From contig JAFTJI010000060.1 of assembly GCA_017456495.1 (NCBI GenBank), positions 1-34,633 of the forward strand: a stretch of DNA of 34,633 nt. The letters run 5' to 3'. This document shows positions 297 through 12,977 of this stretch, one piece after another. How positions within the stretch are numbered: the stretch's first letter is position 1; the number at the start of each line of letters is the position of its first letter. This stretch comes from Lentisphaeria bacterium. Lineage in GTDB: Bacteria > Verrucomicrobiota > Lentisphaeria > Victivallales > UBA1829. The notes below the pieces were generated by a model that ran no database searches, was not told where the DNA came from, and was given only the letters and a program-made list of their open reading frames with translations. The translations under genes were made by a program, and so were the position numbers.

Positions 297-325
297 TTGA
301 ATATTTTACGGATGAGGTGTATTTT
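297..325 (+). promoter_or_regulatory. Candidate promoter of the aro leader and operon
   Basis: TTGAAT (297-302) and TATTTT (320-325) are separated by 17 bp. The expected transcription start, near 332, lies just before the leader-peptide ribosome-binding site GAAGG (337-341), giving a short untranslated lead as in other attenuated biosynthetic operons. Confidence 0.5.
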
Positions 326-350: not shown

Positions 351-443
351 ATGAAATTGAACAGCTTTTATTTCCGATTTTATTTTTACGCTGCTTTTTA
401 CTTTAGAAAGCGGGCGTTTGCTGCTGTTCCGATGCCGTGTTAA
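351..443 (+). CDS. Phe/Tyr-rich attenuation leader peptide of the aro operon
   Basis: A 30-codon ORF starts at ATG 351, with GAAGG 9 nt upstream, and ends at TAA 441-443. Residues 1-18 read MKLNSFYFRFYFYAAFYF, followed by RKRAFAAVPMPC. Seven residues are Phe and four are Tyr; ten of the thirteen residues at positions 6-18 are aromatic. Such a run just upstream of a DAHP synthase gene is the hallmark of a ribosome-stalling leader peptide, comparable in principle to PheL of enteric bacteria. Its proposed job is to sense charged Phe- and Tyr-tRNA: a ribosome starved at codons 6-18 covers RNA segment 388-397 and shifts the downstream RNA into the antiterminator fold. The peptide itself probably has no other function. 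Sequence, start and structure are seen directly; the regulatory role is inferred. Confidence 0.9.
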   Translation: MKLNSFYFRFYFYAAFYFRKRAFAAVPMPC

Positions 444-506
444 AACCTGAACAACAAATGATATGCAATACGCCCGCTTCCGAATTGAGGTTGCGGGCTT
501 TTTTTT
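388..506 (+). promoter_or_regulatory. Transcription attenuator (1:2, 2:3 and 3:4 stems) before aroF
   Basis: Four segments can pair in competing ways. Segment 1 (388-397, ACGCTGCTTT) lies within the Phe/Tyr codons and pairs with segment 2 (407-417, AAAGCGGGCGT): 4 bp, a T-G wobble, one bulged G, then 5 bp, with a 9-nt loop. Segment 2 (408-417) also pairs perfectly over 10 bp with segment 3 (470-479, ACGCCCGCTT). Segment 3 (472-477, GCCCGC) also pairs with segment 4 (493-498, GCGGGC), which is followed by eight T residues. Thus 1:2 with 3:4 gives termination, and 2:3 gives readthrough. A ribosome stalled at Phe or Tyr codons would mask segment 1 and favour 2:3. A further 7-bp pairing (359-365 with 423-429) is possible. 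Confidence 0.85.
472..506 (+). terminator. Attenuator terminator hairpin
   Basis: GCCCGC (472-477) pairs with GCGGGC (493-498); two inner C-G pairs (480-481 with 489-490) can close part of the loop. T residues at 499-506 complete an intrinsic terminator. It lies 24 nt before the aroF start codon, so termination here removes the whole aro operon transcript. Confidence 0.8.
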
Positions 507-1543: not shown

Positions 1544-2110
1544 ATGAAAACACCGTCCCGGAAAAATATTACGCTCTGCGGAATCAAACATGCAGGGAAA
1601 ACCTCTGCGGCAAAGGCACTTTCTGCTTTGACAGGAATGCCTTTTGCTGATTCCGATGATACCTTGAAAGAGCTTTACGGAAAAGAGACCGGAACAGATT
1701 TGACTGTCCGGGAGATTTTTCAGACTCTTGGCGAAAGCGGATTCCGGCAGCTTGAGGTCCGGGCTTTGCGGGAACTCTTTTCCGGGAACAGCGGTGTTAT
1801 CATTGCATTGGGCGGCGGTGTGCTTTCCAATCCTTTCCTGACTGATAATGACCGGAAGAATTTCGGTTTCCTCTGCTGTCTGGATGTTCAGGATGAAGTT
1901 GCTTATCAGCGGATCATTCAGAATGGTCTGCCGCCGTTCCTGAAAGATAAGCCGGATCCATTTCAGGCATTGTGCGAGATGAACTTGAACCGCCGGGAAA
2001 TGTTCCGGAAATATGCTGATTTTATTGTAGATGCCGGAGAGGCAAAAGATGCGACTCCGGAGAAAACTGCGGAAAAAATTCTTGCCGCTTACAGGGAGAA
2101 TGTTCTATGA
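1544..2110 (+). CDS. aroK: Shikimate kinase
   Basis: Phosphorylates shikimate at the 3-position using ATP, in the cytoplasm. The 188-residue protein has a Walker A loop (GIKHAGKTSAAKAL, residues 13-26), the shikimate-binding acidic motif FADSDD (about 34-39), the binding Arg in ESGFRQLE, and the ALGGGV loop near residue 90. The C-terminal half, with its lid region and Arg residues, is less conserved, and the protein is slightly longer than typical AroK (about 170 residues). It starts 2 nt after the DAHP synthase stop and its stop overlaps the chorismate synthase start by 4 nt (ATGA), which suggests translational coupling. No separate aroB, aroD, aroE or aroA is present in the window. The aroK versus aroL distinction cannot be made from sequence. 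Confidence 0.93.
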   Translation: MKTPSRKNITLCGIKHAGKTSAAKALSALTGMPFADSDDTLKELYGKETGTDLTVREIFQTLGESGFRQLEVRALRELFSGNSGVIIALGGGVLSNPFLTDNDRKNFGFLCCLDVQDEVAYQRIIQNGLPPFLKDKPDPFQALCEMNLNRREMFRKYADFIVDAGEAKDATPEKTAEKILAAYRENVL

Positions 2111-3168
2111 ATAACTCGTTTGGAGAACTTTTCAGGATTACTACTTTCGGGGAATCCCACGGTGCTGCGCTGGGTGTCGTGATCGATGGTGTTCCTGCCG
2201 GTTTGGAAATTGATACAGATTTTATTGCTTCCGAAATGGCGCGCCGCAGACCGGGACAATCCGATGTTTCAACTGCCCGGAATGAGGCAGATGCTCCGGA
2301 GATCCTTTCCGGCGTTTTTGAAGGAAAATCAACCGGAACCCCGCTGACACTTCTCATCCGCAACAGCAATCAGCACTCTTCGGACTATTCCAATATCATG
2401 AATCTCTACCGTCCGGGACATGCGGATTACACCTTTGATAAGAAGTATGGGATCCGCGACTATCGCGGCGGCGGAAGATCTTCCGGAAGAGAGACTTGTG
2501 CAAGAGTTGCCGCCGGTGCGGTCGCAAAGCTTCTGCTCCGTCAATTCGGAATTTCTGTCCGCGCCTGTACGATCCAAATCGGTTCTGTAAAAGCGGAAAA
2601 ACGGGATTGGTCGATCGTTGAAACAAATCCTGTCCGCTGCGCAGATGCTTCCGCTGCAGAAGCGATGCACGAAGAGATCCGTTCCGCAGCCTCCCGTTCT
2701 GACAGCGTCGGCGGAATGATCCATTGCGAGATCCTTGGTGTTCCCGCCGGATTGGGAGAACCGGTTTTCGATAAGTTTGATGCTCTCCTTGCACACGCCA
2801 TGCTCTCGATCGGCGGAGTAAAAGGCTTTGAACTCGGGCGCGGGTTCGGGGTCGCAGAACAATACGGTTCCACAAATAATGACGGTATGACACCGGAAGG
2901 ATTCCTCAGCAATCATGCCGGCGGGATCCTCGGAGGCATTTCCAACGGGAATGTGATAGATTTCCGGATCGCAGTGAAGCCGACACCTTCGATTTTCCTT
3001 CCGCAACAGACTGTTGACCGTGATGGCAACCAGGTGGAAGCGAAGATCCGCGGGCGGCATGATCCCTGTCTGGTACCCCGGATCGTTCCGGTTGCTGAGG
3101 CTATGGCTGCTCTGGTCACGGCGGATTTGTTCCTCCGCAGCCGTATCAACCGGATGGATCAGCTCTGA
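2107..3168 (+). CDS. aroC: Chorismate synthase
   Basis: Converts 5-enolpyruvylshikimate 3-phosphate to chorismate, using reduced FMN as a catalyst; the last common step to Phe, Tyr and Trp. The 353-residue length is typical. Conserved signatures are visible: FGELFRITTFGESHG at the N-terminus (His in GESHG), the YRPGHADYTFDKKYGIRDYRGGGRSSGRETCARVAAGAVAK-type block at about residues 101-140, and the C-terminal RGRHDPCLVPRIVPVAEAM segment near 320, with the RHDP motif. It overlaps aroK by 4 nt and is the last gene of the attenuated aro operon; a weak hairpin at 3187-3204 follows. It is placed under the same Phe/Tyr control as aroF by position. Confidence 0.97.
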   Translation: MNNSFGELFRITTFGESHGAALGVVIDGVPAGLEIDTDFIASEMARRRPGQSDVSTARNEADAPEILSGVFEGKSTGTPLTLLIRNSNQHSSDYSNIMNLYRPGHADYTFDKKYGIRDYRGGGRSSGRETCARVAAGAVAKLLLRQFGISVRACTIQIGSVKAEKRDWSIVETNPVRCADASAAEAMHEEIRSAASRSDSVGGMIHCEILGVPAGLGEPVFDKFDALLAHAMLSIGGVKGFELGRGFGVAEQYGSTNNDGMTPEGFLSNHAGGILGGISNGNVIDFRIAVKPTPSIFLPQQTVDRDGNQVEAKIRGRHDPCLVPRIVPVAEAMAALVTADLFLRSRINRMDQL

Positions 3169-8076: not shown

Positions 8077-11000
8077 ATGCCGAAACGCACGGACATCAAG
8101 AAGATCTTGATCATCGGATCAGGTCCTATCATCATCGGTCAGGCATGTGAGTTCGATTATTCCGGAACTCAAGCATGCAAGGCACTCCGCAAACTTGGTT
8201 ATGAAATCGTTCTCGTGAACTCCAACCCTGCAACGATCATGACCGACCCCGGAACTGCTGATCACACCTACATCGAACCTCTTACTGTCGACAGACTGGA
8301 AAAGATCATCGAAAAAGAACGTCCGGATGCACTTCTGCCCAACTTGGGCGGTCAGACCGCTCTGAACCTTTCCACCGCACTTCATGAAGAAGGCATTCTC
8401 AAGAAATACGGCGTGAAAGTTATCGGTGTTGACCTTGATGCCATTCAGCGTGGCGAGGACCGCATCATCTTCAAGGAAACCATGAAAAAAATCGGCGTGC
8501 CTATGGCAAAGTCCGAACCCTGTACTTCCCTGGAAGAAGCTGAAAAAATCGCAAATGACTTCGGCTATCCTGTCGTTCTCCGTCCCGCTTACACCATGGG
8601 CGGAACAGGCGGCGGTATCGTTTACAACGTGGAAGAACTCCGCGAAGTCTGCGCACGCGGTCTGGAAGCAAGTTTGATTCATCAGGTGCTCATCGAAGAG
8701 TGTGTCACCGGTTGGATGGAACTGGAACTCGAAGTCGTCCGCGATGCCGAAGGCAACAAAATCACCGTTTGTTTCATTGAAAACGTTGACCCCATGGGAA
8801 CCCATACCGGCGACAGCTTCTGCGTTGCTCCCATGCTCACCGTTCCGGAATCCCTGCAGAAGCGTTTGCAGGACTATGCTTACAGAATCGTTGATGAAGT
8901 CGGTATCACCGGCGGCGGAAACGTTCAGTTCTCCTACAATCCCGCTGATGACCGTATCATCGTTATTGAAATCAACCCCAGAACCTCCCGTTCCTCTGCA
9001 TTGGCATCCAAAGCAACCGGATTCCCCATTGCAAGTGTTTCCACCCTGCTCGCGGCAGGTCTCACTCTGAAAGAACTGCCCTACTGGAAAGAAGGTACTC
9101 TGGAAAAATATGTCCCCACCGGCGATTATGTCGTTGTGAAGTTCGCACGCTGGGCTTTTGAGAAATTCCCGCAGGCTGCTGACTGCCTCGGAACCCAGAT
9201 GAAGGCTGTCGGTGAAATGATGAGTATCGGACAGAACTTCAAGGAAGCGTTCCAGAAAGGGATCCGCTCTCTCGAAATCGGCAGATACGGTCTCGGCTTT
9301 GTCAAAAAGATCGAAAAACTTTCTGCTGAAGAGCTGAAACAGAAGATCGTCACCCCCAACAGCCAGCGTTTCTTCCAGATCTATGAAGCAATGAAGAAAG
9401 GCGTGACCGTCGACGAAGTCGTCAAGGCAACCAAGATCACCCGTTACTTCATCGAACAGATGTATGAACTGGTTCAGTCCGAACTTGATATGATCGCAAA
9501 AGGCTGGAACGGAATCACCGATGCTGAACTCGTTCAGGCAAAACGCGATGGTTTCGCAGATAAATATCTCGCACGGATCTTCAATGTGACTGAAATCGAA
9601 GTCCGCAACCGCAGACGCGCTGCCGGTGCAAAGGCTGTCTTCCGCGCGATCCCCGTTTCCGGCGTGGAAAATCAGGAATACTACTACTCCACCTATGCTG
9701 ATGTCGAAGACAATGTGAAAGTTTCCGACAAGCGCAAGATCATGATCCTCGGCGGCGGACCCAACCGTATCGGTCAGGGAATCGAATTCGACTACACATG
9801 CGTCCATGCAGCATTTGCTCTGCGCGATGAAAACTGCGAATCCGTGATGATCAACTGCAACCCCGAAACAGTTTCCACCGACTATGACACCAGCAACAAG
9901 CTCTATTTTGAGCCGCTCACCGTGGAAGATGTGCTGGCAATCTATGAAAAAGAACAGCCGGAAGGCGTGATCGTCCAGTTCGGCGGTCAGACTCCGCTGA
10001 ATATCGCTCAGGAACTGAAAGATGCAGGTCTGAACATCCTCGGAACCCAGCCGGAAGGAATCCGTCTTGCAGAAGACCGTGAATACTTCCGTGAACGCAT
10101 GATCGCACTGGGAATCCCGCAGCCGAAGAGCGGAACAGCCATTTCTCTCGAAGAAGCGATCGCGCTCGGAAACGAAGTCGGATATCCAGTTATGGTTCGT
10201 CCTTCCTTCGTTCTCGGCGGACGCGGTATGGCAGTTCTCCACAACGAAGAAGAGCTCAAGAAATATGCTGTAGAAGCAATTCAGGTCAGCCCGGAATATC
10301 CCATGCTGATCGACCGTTTCCTCGATAATGCAACCGAATGTGAAGTGGATGCTCTCTCCGATGGAAAGACCACCTTCCTTGCCACTGTGATGGAACACAT
10401 CGAACTTGCCGGTATCCACTCCGGAGACTCCGCCTGTGCAATTCCTCCTGTGACTCTGAAGCAGGAACATCTCGACACAATCGAACGCTACTCTGCCGCA
10501 ATCGCAGCAGACTTCAAGGTGGAAGGTATCCTGAACGTTCAGTATGCTGTTTGCGACGATGTGGTTTACATCATCGAAGCCAACCCGCGAGCATCCAGAA
10601 CCGTGCCTCTGGTGGCAAAAGTCACAGGCGTGCCTCTGGCAAGAATCGCAACCGGTTTGATGCTCGGTCATCCCATGGAAGAGTTCAAGCCCCTGCTGAA
10701 ACGCAAATCTTCCAACTACTACGGTGTGAAGGAAGCTGTCTTCCCGTTCAATATGTTCCCTGAAGTTGACCCGATCCTCGGACCGGAAATGCGTGCGACC
10801 GGTGAAGTTATGGGCTTGGCTGACAACTTTGGTCTGGCTTACTTCAAGGCTCAGGAAGCTGCCGGCGGAAAACTCCCGCTGGAAGGAACCGCTTTGATCT
10901 CTGTCAACAAGAAGGAACGTCAGTATCTTCTCCCTGTTGCTCAAGGCTTGAAAGCTCTCGGTTTCCCGATCTATGCAACGGAAGGCACCAGCAAGTATCT

Positions 11001-11283
11001 TGCAGAAAACGGTATTGAAAACACCATGATCAACAAGATCGGCGAAGGCCGTCCTGATGTCAGCGACCTGATCAAGAACCACACGGTCAACCTGATCATC
11101 AACACGCCGAAGGACAAGACCGAAAAGCGTGATGACAGCTATATCCGTATGATGGCGATCCAGTATAAGATCCCGTTCATGACCACGATCGCAGCAGCCA
11201 AAGCAACGATCTCCGGTATTGAAGCTGCACGGAAACAGGCGATTCCGCCGAAGTCCCTGCAGGAATACCATTCCGGAAAATAA
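8077..11283 (+). CDS. carB: Carbamoyl-phosphate synthase large subunit
   Basis: Makes carbamoyl phosphate from bicarbonate, ammonia (from the glutaminase subunit CarA) and two ATP, for pyrimidine and arginine synthesis. The 1,068 residues match the family length. The N-terminal half has 'MPKRTDIKKILIIGSGPIIIGQACEFDYSG', the ATP-grasp core with 'RPAYTMGGTGGG' near 170 and 'EINPRTSRSSALASKATG' near 300. The second half repeats this: 'ILGGGPNRIGQGIEFDYTC', 'VRPSFVLGGRGM', 'EANPRASRTVPLVAKVTG'. A methylglyoxal-synthase-like allosteric domain closes the C-terminus. AGGAAAGGAAAC precedes the start. carA is not adjacent, so the small subunit is encoded elsewhere. Codons end in C more often than in neighbouring genes, consistent with high expression. 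A strong terminator follows. Confidence 0.98.
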   Translation: MPKRTDIKKILIIGSGPIIIGQACEFDYSGTQACKALRKLGYEIVLVNSNPATIMTDPGTADHTYIEPLTVDRLEKIIEKERPDALLPNLGGQTALNLSTALHEEGILKKYGVKVIGVDLDAIQRGEDRIIFKETMKKIGVPMAKSEPCTSLEEAEKIANDFGYPVVLRPAYTMGGTGGGIVYNVEELREVCARGLEASLIHQVLIEECVTGWMELELEVVRDAEGNKITVCFIENVDPMGTHTGDSFCVAPMLTVPESLQKRLQDYAYRIVDEVGITGGGNVQFSYNPADDRIIVIEINPRTSRSSALASKATGFPIASVSTLLAAGLTLKELPYWKEGTLEKYVPTGDYVVVKFARWAFEKFPQAADCLGTQMKAVGEMMSIGQNFKEAFQKGIRSLEIGRYGLGFVKKIEKLSAEELKQKIVTPNSQRFFQIYEAMKKGVTVDEVVKATKITRYFIEQMYELVQSELDMIAKGWNGITDAELVQAKRDGFADKYLARIFNVTEIEVRNRRRAAGAKAVFRAIPVSGVENQEYYYSTYADVEDNVKVSDKRKIMILGGGPNRIGQGIEFDYTCVHAAFALRDENCESVMINCNPETVSTDYDTSNKLYFEPLTVEDVLAIYEKEQPEGVIVQFGGQTPLNIAQELKDAGLNILGTQPEGIRLAEDREYFRERMIALGIPQPKSGTAISLEEAIALGNEVGYPVMVRPSFVLGGRGMAVLHNEEELKKYAVEAIQVSPEYPMLIDRFLDNATECEVDALSDGKTTFLATVMEHIELAGIHSGDSACAIPPVTLKQEHLDTIERYSAAIAADFKVEGILNVQYAVCDDVVYIIEANPRASRTVPLVAKVTGVPLARIATGLMLGHPMEEFKPLLKRKSSNYYGVKEAVFPFNMFPEVDPILGPEMRATGEVMGLADNFGLAYFKAQEAAGGKLPLEGTALISVNKKERQYLLPVAQGLKALGFPIYATEGTSKYLAENGIENTMINKIGEGRPDVSDLIKNHTVNLIINTPKDKTEKRDDSYIRMMAIQYKIPFMTTIAAAKATISGIEAARKQAIPPKSLQEYHSGK

Positions 11284-11300
11284 TCGTCCGTGATATCCAA

Positions 11301-11330
11301 CGCCGGAGTTGTTTTGACTCCGGCGTTTTT
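11301..11330 (+). terminator. Intrinsic terminator of carB
   Basis: CGCCGGAGT (11301-11309) pairs perfectly with ACTCCGGCG (11317-11325) around a 7-nt loop, followed by TTTTTCTTTTG. It lies 18 nt after the carB stop and only about 22 nt before the permease start, so the permease either relies on readthrough or on a promoter inside carB. Confidence 0.9.
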
Positions 11331-11351
11331 CTTTTGTTTGAAAGGTTTGAA

Positions 11352-12977
11352 ATGTTAGTTTTCTGTGCGGTTTTTCCAATTCTTCTTGCATTGGTTCTGA
11401 TGACCGGTTTCAAAGTGTCCCCCGGCAAGGCTCTTCCCTGTTCATTTCTTGCTTCTGCGGTCTCTGCTTATTTTTTCTGGAAACTGCAGATCCCGGATAT
11501 TCTCTCCTACACTCTGCTTGGAGCGATTAAAGCACTTGATATTATTCTGATTATTGCCTGTGCGATCTTTCTGCTGAATATTCTGCGCAGAACGGGTGCG
11601 TTGGAAGTGATCAAGTCCACTTTCAGCGGGATTTCCCCGGACCGGCGGATCCAGGTGATCGTGATTGCCTGGTTTTTCAGCAACTTTATTGAGGGGGTTG
11701 CGGGGTTTGGTGCTGCTCCTGCATTGGCGGCTCCCCTGCTTGTCGGAATGGGATTCCCGGCGGTAACAGCTGTGGTTGCTGCATTGATTTGCAACACGCT
11801 TCCGGTTCCTTTTGGCGGGGCAGGGATCGCCTTTATGACATCCTGCAATGCTGTTTCGGGTGAGGTGGAAAAACTTGGTATGAACGTTTCTCAGTTTAAC
11901 CATGATGCGTTGAGCTGTTTTACGACATTTTCCAGTATCTCCGGAGCATTTGTTCCTCTTACGGCTGTTGCGGCGATGATTCTGATTTCCGGAGGAAAAG
12001 GAAAACTCCGTTCCATTCTGGAAATCGTTCCGCTATGTCTGTTCAGCGGGCTCTTGTATGTTGCGGTATGGAAAATCGCCGCAATGATCCTTGGTCCTGA
12101 GCTGCCTTCTGTTCTTGGATCCCTGATCTCTTATCCGATCTTTTATCTTGCCTTGAAACTGCATTTTCTTGTGCCGTCAAGAGTCTGGGATTTTCCGGAG
12201 GAAACAACGGTTATGAAACCAGTTCAACCGGCAGAATTGACCCCGGTTCCGGTTTGGAAAGCATGGCTTCCGTATCTGAGCATTGCTTTTCTGCTTGTGA
12301 TTACAAGGATTCCCTATCTTCCCATACGCGGCTGGCTGGGAAGTTTCTGCCGGCTGAAGATCACAGAAATTTTTTCGACACCCGGGACGATGCATCAGTG
12401 GTCGATTTTAGCCAATCCGGGCGTGTTTCCGTTTCTTCCGGTTGCAATTATATTTGCATTGATCTTGGGATTGAAATGGAAAGACATTTTTCAAGTTGCG
12501 CGGGAATCTGAGAAACAGATCCGTTTTTCCGCATTTGCAATTGTTTCTGCATTTGCAATGGTGCAAATCATGGTCTCTTCAGCTTATAACGATGCAGATT
12601 TACCGGGGATGCTGACTCTGATTGCGGAAAAAGTTGTTCATTCCACGGGCAGAGGATATTTGGTGATTGCGCCCGTTGTAGGATGCTTCGGAACCTTTTT
12701 TGCCGGATCGTGTACGGTTTCCAATATTCTGTTCTGTCCGATCCAGTTCAATGCTGCAGGATTGCTTGATTTTCCGGAAGTTCAGATGATTGCGCTTCAG
12801 AATACCGGTGGAGGGATCGGCAGTATGCTGAGGTTATCCGGAATCGTTGCGACTTGTGCCACGGTGAATGCAAGCGGAAAAGAAGGGAAGATCATTCTTC
12901 TGAATTTACTTCCCGCTCTGTTTCTGCTCATGCTGACCCTGTTGGGGGCATATTGTTATAATCTCTGGTTTCTCTGA
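11352..12977 (+). CDS. LctP-family L-lactate/glycolate permease
   Basis: A 541-residue inner-membrane transporter of the lactate permease family (TC 2.A.14), which import lactate or glycolate with protons. It is hydrophobic throughout, with about 12-14 predicted membrane segments. The signature 'FFSNFIEGVAGFGAAPALAAPLLVGMGFP' is near residue 105-135 and 'LPVPFGGAGIAF' follows; late in the protein 'GCFGTFFAGSCTVSNILF' and 'QNTGGGIGSML' match the family. ATG 11352 is preferred over an upstream in-frame TTG (11334) because AAAGG lies 8 nt upstream of it. Its stop codon directly abuts the stop of the convergent thioesterase gene with no gap. No lactate dehydrogenase genes are nearby, so the substrate is inferred from family only. 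Confidence 0.88.
   Translation: MLVFCAVFPILLALVLMTGFKVSPGKALPCSFLASAVSAYFFWKLQIPDILSYTLLGAIKALDIILIIACAIFLLNILRRTGALEVIKSTFSGISPDRRIQVIVIAWFFSNFIEGVAGFGAAPALAAPLLVGMGFPAVTAVVAALICNTLPVPFGGAGIAFMTSCNAVSGEVEKLGMNVSQFNHDALSCFTTFSSISGAFVPLTAVAAMILISGGKGKLRSILEIVPLCLFSGLLYVAVWKIAAMILGPELPSVLGSLISYPIFYLALKLHFLVPSRVWDFPEETTVMKPVQPAELTPVPVWKAWLPYLSIAFLLVITRIPYLPIRGWLGSFCRLKITEIFSTPGTMHQWSILANPGVFPFLPVAIIFALILGLKWKDIFQVARESEKQIRFSAFAIVSAFAMVQIMVSSAYNDADLPGMLTLIAEKVVHSTGRGYLVIAPVVGCFGTFFAGSCTVSNILFCPIQFNAAGLLDFPEVQMIALQNTGGGIGSMLRLSGIVATCATVNASGKEGKIILLNLLPALFLLMLTLLGAYCYNLWFL

Follow-up and report, generated by a model that had tools for sequence, protein, structure and literature searches.

A predicted leader-peptide attenuator for phenylalanine and tyrosine upstream of aroF in Lentisphaerota and Clostridia

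Results

The window, that is, the whole 34,633-nt stretch of DNA from a Lentisphaeria bacterium analysed here, very probably carries a ribosome-mediated transcription attenuator of aroF(-aroK-aroC), which would sense charged tRNA-Phe and tRNA-Tyr. The leader ORF (351-443, + strand) comprises 30 codons, starts with ATG at 351-353, ends with the stop codon TAA at 441-443 and encodes MKLNSFYFRFYFYAAFYFRKRAFAAVPMPC. Phe or Tyr is found at codons 6, 7, 8, 10, 11, 12, 13, 16, 17 and 18, and the control codons 6-18 (366-404, +) are aromatic at 10 of 13 positions. An earlier note, made from the sequence of the window, had reported a 30-residue ORF with ten aromatic residues in positions 6-18, and reading of the sequence bore this out. 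The ORF was conserved in L083, L084, L085, L086, L095, L096 and many other leaders.

A promoter was predicted by eye at 297-325 (+), with TTGAAT at 297-302, a 17-nt spacer and TATTTT at 320-325; it was missed by a promoter consensus scan. From its position, the transcript would be expected to start near 331-333. TTGCAA-17-TATTTT was present at the corresponding place in the same-genus genome G011 (L084), and the TATTTT box (-10) was kept in both same-genus genomes, G010 (L083) and G011. The Shine-Dalgarno-like AAGAAGG (335-341, +) lies 9 nt before the ATG at 351, and a similar purine tract was also found in L083 and L084; with this start, the leader ORF is predicted to be translated. Another in-frame start candidate, the ATG at 273 (56 aa), was dismissed because it lies upstream of the predicted promoter and the conserved peptide starts at 351.

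Three genes on the + strand follow the leader: aroF (531-1541), aroK (1544-2110) and aroC (2107-3168). The first encodes a type I-beta DAHP synthase with an N-terminal ferredoxin-like (FXD) domain (PF00793, PF18152, NF006421; homologues 4grs, 1rzm, 3pg9), the second shikimate kinase (PF01202), and the third chorismate synthase (TIGR00033, PF01264). As aroK begins 2 nt past aroF and overlaps aroC by 4 nt, the three genes are predicted to be transcribed jointly. Tyr/Phe feedback on the AroF enzyme is plausible, given the FXD domain (PF18152). The sole candidate gene upstream of the leader is on the opposite strand, and therefore the terminator described below does not mark where a different transcription unit ends. 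Elsewhere in the window, carB (carbamoyl-phosphate synthase large chain; 8077-11283, +) was nearly wholly overlapped by a 1090-aa minus-strand frame (8119-11391), which is most likely a shadow ORF.

The leader contains three competing stems. Segment 1 (ACGCTGCTTT, 388-397, +) pairs with segment 2, AAAGCGGGCGT (407-417, +), in 9 bp with a small internal loop, forming the inner 1:2 stem. Segment 2 sits within the aromatic ORF, and its part AAGCGGGCGT (408-417) also forms the 5' arm of a perfect 10-bp antiterminator with segment 3, ACGCCCGCTT (470-479, +). Segment 3 contains the 5' arm of the intrinsic terminator (472-506, +; -16.0 kcal/mol), in which GCCCGC (472-477) pairs with GCGGGC (493-498) across a loop of 15, followed by eight T at 499-506. 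A simple terminator scan overlooked this terminator, since the loop limit of the scan was 8. All coordinates that the earlier note had given for the three stems and the eight T were right, and the arrangement is far beyond chance. To its list we add an outer 1:2 stem, in which GAACAGC (359-365, +) pairs with GCTGTTC (423-429, +); analogous outer stems were found in relatives, for example L028 (TTTACAGCGG/CCGCTGTAAA) and L037. The whole leader folded into the 1:2 hairpin and the terminator, and 398-506 folded alone gave the antiterminator in their place.

Fold switching was modelled by equilibrium folding around a ribosome. Its footprint was taken to reach 14 nt, counted from the first base in the A-site, and all RNA 5' of that point was masked. 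In the window, the terminator had a probability of 1.00 without a ribosome and of 0.50-0.75 while the A-site lay on codons 1-8. The probability was 0.19 for codon 9, 0.76 for codon 10 and 0.05-0.15 for codons 11-15; it then climbed to 0.33 for codon 16 and returned to 1.00 for codon 17 and beyond. Among the seven A-site positions spanning codons 9-15, six thus gave 0.05-0.19. G010 and G011 showed the same drop and return, but their early codons differed. Masking by a modelled ribosome at the aromatic codons flipped the predicted fold. The earlier note had placed segment 1 at the very site that a starved ribosome would mask; this held for stalls at about codons 10-16, but not at codons 6-8, because the footprint there ends before nt 388. 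A stall at codons 6-8 brought the probability of the terminator in the window to only about 0.5 and gave different values in G010 and G011, which speaks against the proposed mechanism. A ribosome at codons 6-8 would break the outer 1:2 stem only, whereas one at about codons 10-16 would break the inner stem too, so a graded response would be possible. These models support the view that the position of the ribosome at the control codons would decide the fold in the genus of the window. For long-terminator leaders of other genera, the full RNA was in most cases predicted to hold the terminator at equilibrium, whatever the ribosome position. Antitermination in these relatives must therefore be kinetic, and the antiterminator would have to be in place before segment 4 is transcribed. 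Folding of truncated RNA was partly circular: its drop in pairing past the aromatic run was partly built in, because masking more RNA can only lower pairing.

The leader peptides of the two same-genus genomes were MNLNSFYFRFYFYAAFYFRKRAFAAVPMPC (G010, L083) and MNLNSVYFRFYFYAAFYFRKRAFIAVLIP (G011, L084). Within leader codons 7-23, the window and G011 differed at four positions, all synonymous, and the non-synonymous differences fell outside these codons. Across the genus, changes in the aromatic codons were nearly all synonymous. The leader was also found in the family and beyond (L085, L086, L095, L096, L003, L008, L023 and L028). The features that the earlier note had suggested looking for in related genomes, a run of aromatic residues and competing stems, were thus kept in both same-genus genomes, other genera and other families, with compensatory changes. 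In a phylum sample of 289 genomes, leaders were present in families f1, f2 and f9 of the class of the window, and also in family f34, which belongs to another class; aroF in these families was about 59% or more identical, and no leader was found at any sampled aroF gene with an identity of at most 52%. Neither genus g9, which is in the family of the window, nor distant aroF copies (45-52% identity) had a leader, and leader presence therefore follows the aroF clade. In g9 (L087-L094 and L098), aroF is immediately preceded by a promoter-like sequence of the TTGAAA...TACATT type with a short 5' UTR, and the attenuator appears to have been lost or never gained there. Five genomes of family f2 (G064, G088, G125, G168 and G224) have two aroF copies each, usually one with and one without a leader; in G224, both copies have one.

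The leader was also common in Clostridia (many of L004-L082), and an independent Clostridia sample had it in 43 of 68 aroF upstream regions. The gap from the leader stop codon to the terminator was narrow (19-46 nt, 5-95% range), and 73 of the 88 scored leaders had a terminator below -10 kcal/mol. The automatic leader score gives a few false positives (L089, L101). Trp was found in the aromatic run of 9 of the 88 scored leaders, among them L023, L048, L180, L182 (...FYFYYGYWWF), L184, L188 and L189, which suggests that all three aromatic amino acids are sensed in some lineages; Trp codons in aroF leaders would fit an enzyme of the common pathway. A tail past the run, GYFCCKK or GSFCC, was repeated in L019, L041, L065, L256, L261, L272 and other Clostridia leaders, and still others showed a FAAEYFYF...FGKA...LA pattern. 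The codons of these recurring tails may be conserved RNA-pairing segments.

In Lentisphaerota, the antiterminator was built from the codons immediately past the aromatic run. Its arms were GCGGGCGT/ACGCCCGC in the window, GCGGAGC/GCTCCGC in L085, GCGGGGGTCG/CGATCCCCGC in L095 and GCGGAGTCCT/AGGACTCCGC in L158. A matched two-sided change between relatives was seen in L157 (GCGGGGTTTGC/GCAAACTCCGT) and L161 (GCGGGGCTTGC/GCAAGCTCCGT). Many Clostridia leaders pair from a slightly later segment, for example L006 (CGTTTGGCTG/CAGCTAAACG); L016 has 14 pairs. MAFFT misaligned the terminator arms when applied to whole leaders, and therefore register-aligned segments and own-versus-mismatched pairing were used for the structure tests. 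In the register-aligned segments (alignment A2, 18 distinct sequences), which were chosen by pairing and so are biased towards structure, two-sided changes occurred at 8 of the 10 pairs in the antiterminator and at 4 of the 7 in the terminator. None of 500 shuffles reached the covariation scores of these 18 sequences, and the signal vanished once the partner was shifted by 1-3 columns. Because the A2 segments were picked by pairing, the own-versus-mismatched test, which compares segment 2 x terminator duplex energies over fixed regions, is the stronger one. Across 73 leaders, the energy was -19.4 kcal/mol for own and -14.4 kcal/mol for mismatched pairs, and none of 20,000 permutations matched the observed value. 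The same result (0/20,000) was obtained for the phylum of the window alone (33 leaders; Lentisphaerota and relatives) and for 39 leaders of the independent Clostridia sample. The predicted antiterminator is mutually exclusive with the terminator and is backed by covariation.

We considered whether an AT-rich intergenic region could by chance give Phe codons (TTT) beside an ordinary terminator hairpin. The region is T-rich, and F/Y scores of 5-6 were fairly frequent in shuffles; however, when the 400 nt upstream of aroF in the window were dinucleotide-shuffled 4000 times, a short ORF with 9 or more F/Y per 12 residues arose only 4 times. Of 102 aroF upstream regions, 51 (50%) held a short ORF in which 7 or more of 12 residues were aromatic; such ORFs arose in 0.8% of dinucleotide shuffles and in 1 of 449 upstream regions of other genes from the same loci. 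The whole genome of the window had 28 FY-run codon-pattern sites, about the same number as the reversed-pattern control, and the aroF site was the only one of the 28 in a short ORF with a strong terminator after it. In the same genome, no Trp-run leader was found, and the His runs lay in a long frame, a frame with no start codon or a short ORF lacking a strong terminator. Relatives conserved the aromatic run and the stems, the run changed synonymously only between the window and G011, the stems covaried, and the pattern was replicated in independent genomes, so the probability of a chance origin is negligible.

An arrest peptide is very unlikely. Here, the nascent chain would, on binding free Phe or Tyr inside the exit tunnel, stall the ribosome in a TnaC-like manner, instead of through codon starvation, and a basic or small-residue stretch (KR, GKA, GR) does often follow the run. 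Against this, peptide sequence and length varied widely while aromatic content and RNA pairing were kept, and Phe and Tyr codons interchanged freely. In Lentisphaerota, moreover, the basic codons coincide with segment 2, and RNA pairing therefore accounts for them. The terminator and antiterminator pair alone would equally suit a ligand riboswitch, a T-box or a protein-bound antiterminator with an incidental ORF. This reading is extremely unlikely, as neither the window (gathering scores) nor its aroF locus and seven relatives (E<=1) had an Rfam match, T-box included, and the aromatic ORF was kept together with the switch, with segment 2 inside the ORF in the window. Ribosome-mediated attenuation at Phe and Tyr codons remains the preferred explanation, and the enteric-type logic that the earlier note had proposed is supported by conservation, covariation and modelled fold switching.

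Discussion

The leader is proposed to act as follows. With ample Phe and Tyr, the ribosome would pass the aromatic codons and cover segment 2, or it would leave and the 1:2 hairpin (359-365:423-429; 388-397:407-417) would re-form. Segment 3 would thus be free, the terminator would form, and transcription would end at about 506. When Phe or Tyr is short, the ribosome would linger on the aromatic codons and block the 1:2 pairing; segment 2 (408-417) would then pair with segment 3 (470-479), no terminator would form, and aroF-aroK-aroC would be transcribed. We infer ribosome stalling and the sign of the response, and the evidence throughout is drawn from sequence.

Enterobacterial pheA (pheL) and pheST have leader-peptide attenuators, represented in Rfam by Phe_leader. 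The aroF leader resembles them in its short ORF rich in control codons, its 1:2 / 2:3 / 3:4 logic and an intrinsic terminator before a biosynthetic gene. It differs in that the target is aroF, a gene of the common pathway, with its operon, in that Phe and Tyr codons are mixed, with Trp too in some relatives, and in that it occurs in Clostridia and Lentisphaerota and has no detectable sequence match. The trp, his, leu and ilv attenuators of Proteobacteria and Actinobacteria share the mechanism but differ in sensed amino acid, target gene and lineage. The enterobacterial pheA and pheST are cited as Phe attenuators in PMC1262725, and a suggestion of attenuation for some Firmicutes operons, for example hisZ, is given in PMC4833913. 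The mechanism has a precedent at aroF: an attenuator with a Phe-codon uORF before aroF was proposed in Acholeplasma in 2021 (PMC8632094). There, the uORF of uORFC-13-1, with at least one Phe residue, immediately precedes an intrinsic terminator and aroF, and the 24 sequences come only from Acholeplasma and environmental sequences. It shares the Phe-codon uORF, the intrinsic terminator and aroF with the leader described here, whereas Tyr codons and a 2:3 antiterminator are absent from its description in the available text. Compared by that description, uORFC-13-1 could be a distant relative.

The Rfam 15 families, among them any for Phe leaders and T-boxes, gave no match to the whole window at gathering scores, or to its aroF locus and seven relatives at E<=1. 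The papers searched included none on leader-peptide attenuation in Lentisphaerota, as the earlier note had expected, and none on such control of aroF in Clostridia or Lentisphaerota, although subscription literature may already list some Clostridia cases. The element is, however, not special to Lentisphaerota, being common in Clostridia and present in another class of the phylum. The kind of regulator is textbook, and the aroF leader is probably a widespread, uncatalogued case of a known type.

In a tree of 102 aroF proteins, the leader-bearing Lentisphaerota were placed amid Clostridia and apart from the leaderless 45%-identity group; the tree was built by a quick method from rows picked by closeness to the window protein, and many of its forks are weak. 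As a lead, it would fit transfer of aroF and its leader between phyla. Our confidence is evenly divided on whether leader and aroF form one old regulatory cassette, shared by Clostridia, Lentisphaerota and another class in the phylum of the window and carried from phylum to phylum with the gene, with Trp codons added in some lineages for all three aromatics, as a widespread uncatalogued attenuator class.

The leader is absent from Rfam 15, and its clear covariation signal would serve a new family entry. Angelakisella massiliensis, Yanshouia hominis and Aminicella lysinilytica are examples of cultured hosts suited to testing the leader. For a large share of Clostridia and for Lentisphaerota, the leader offers a prediction of how aromatic amino-acid synthesis would be controlled at its first step.
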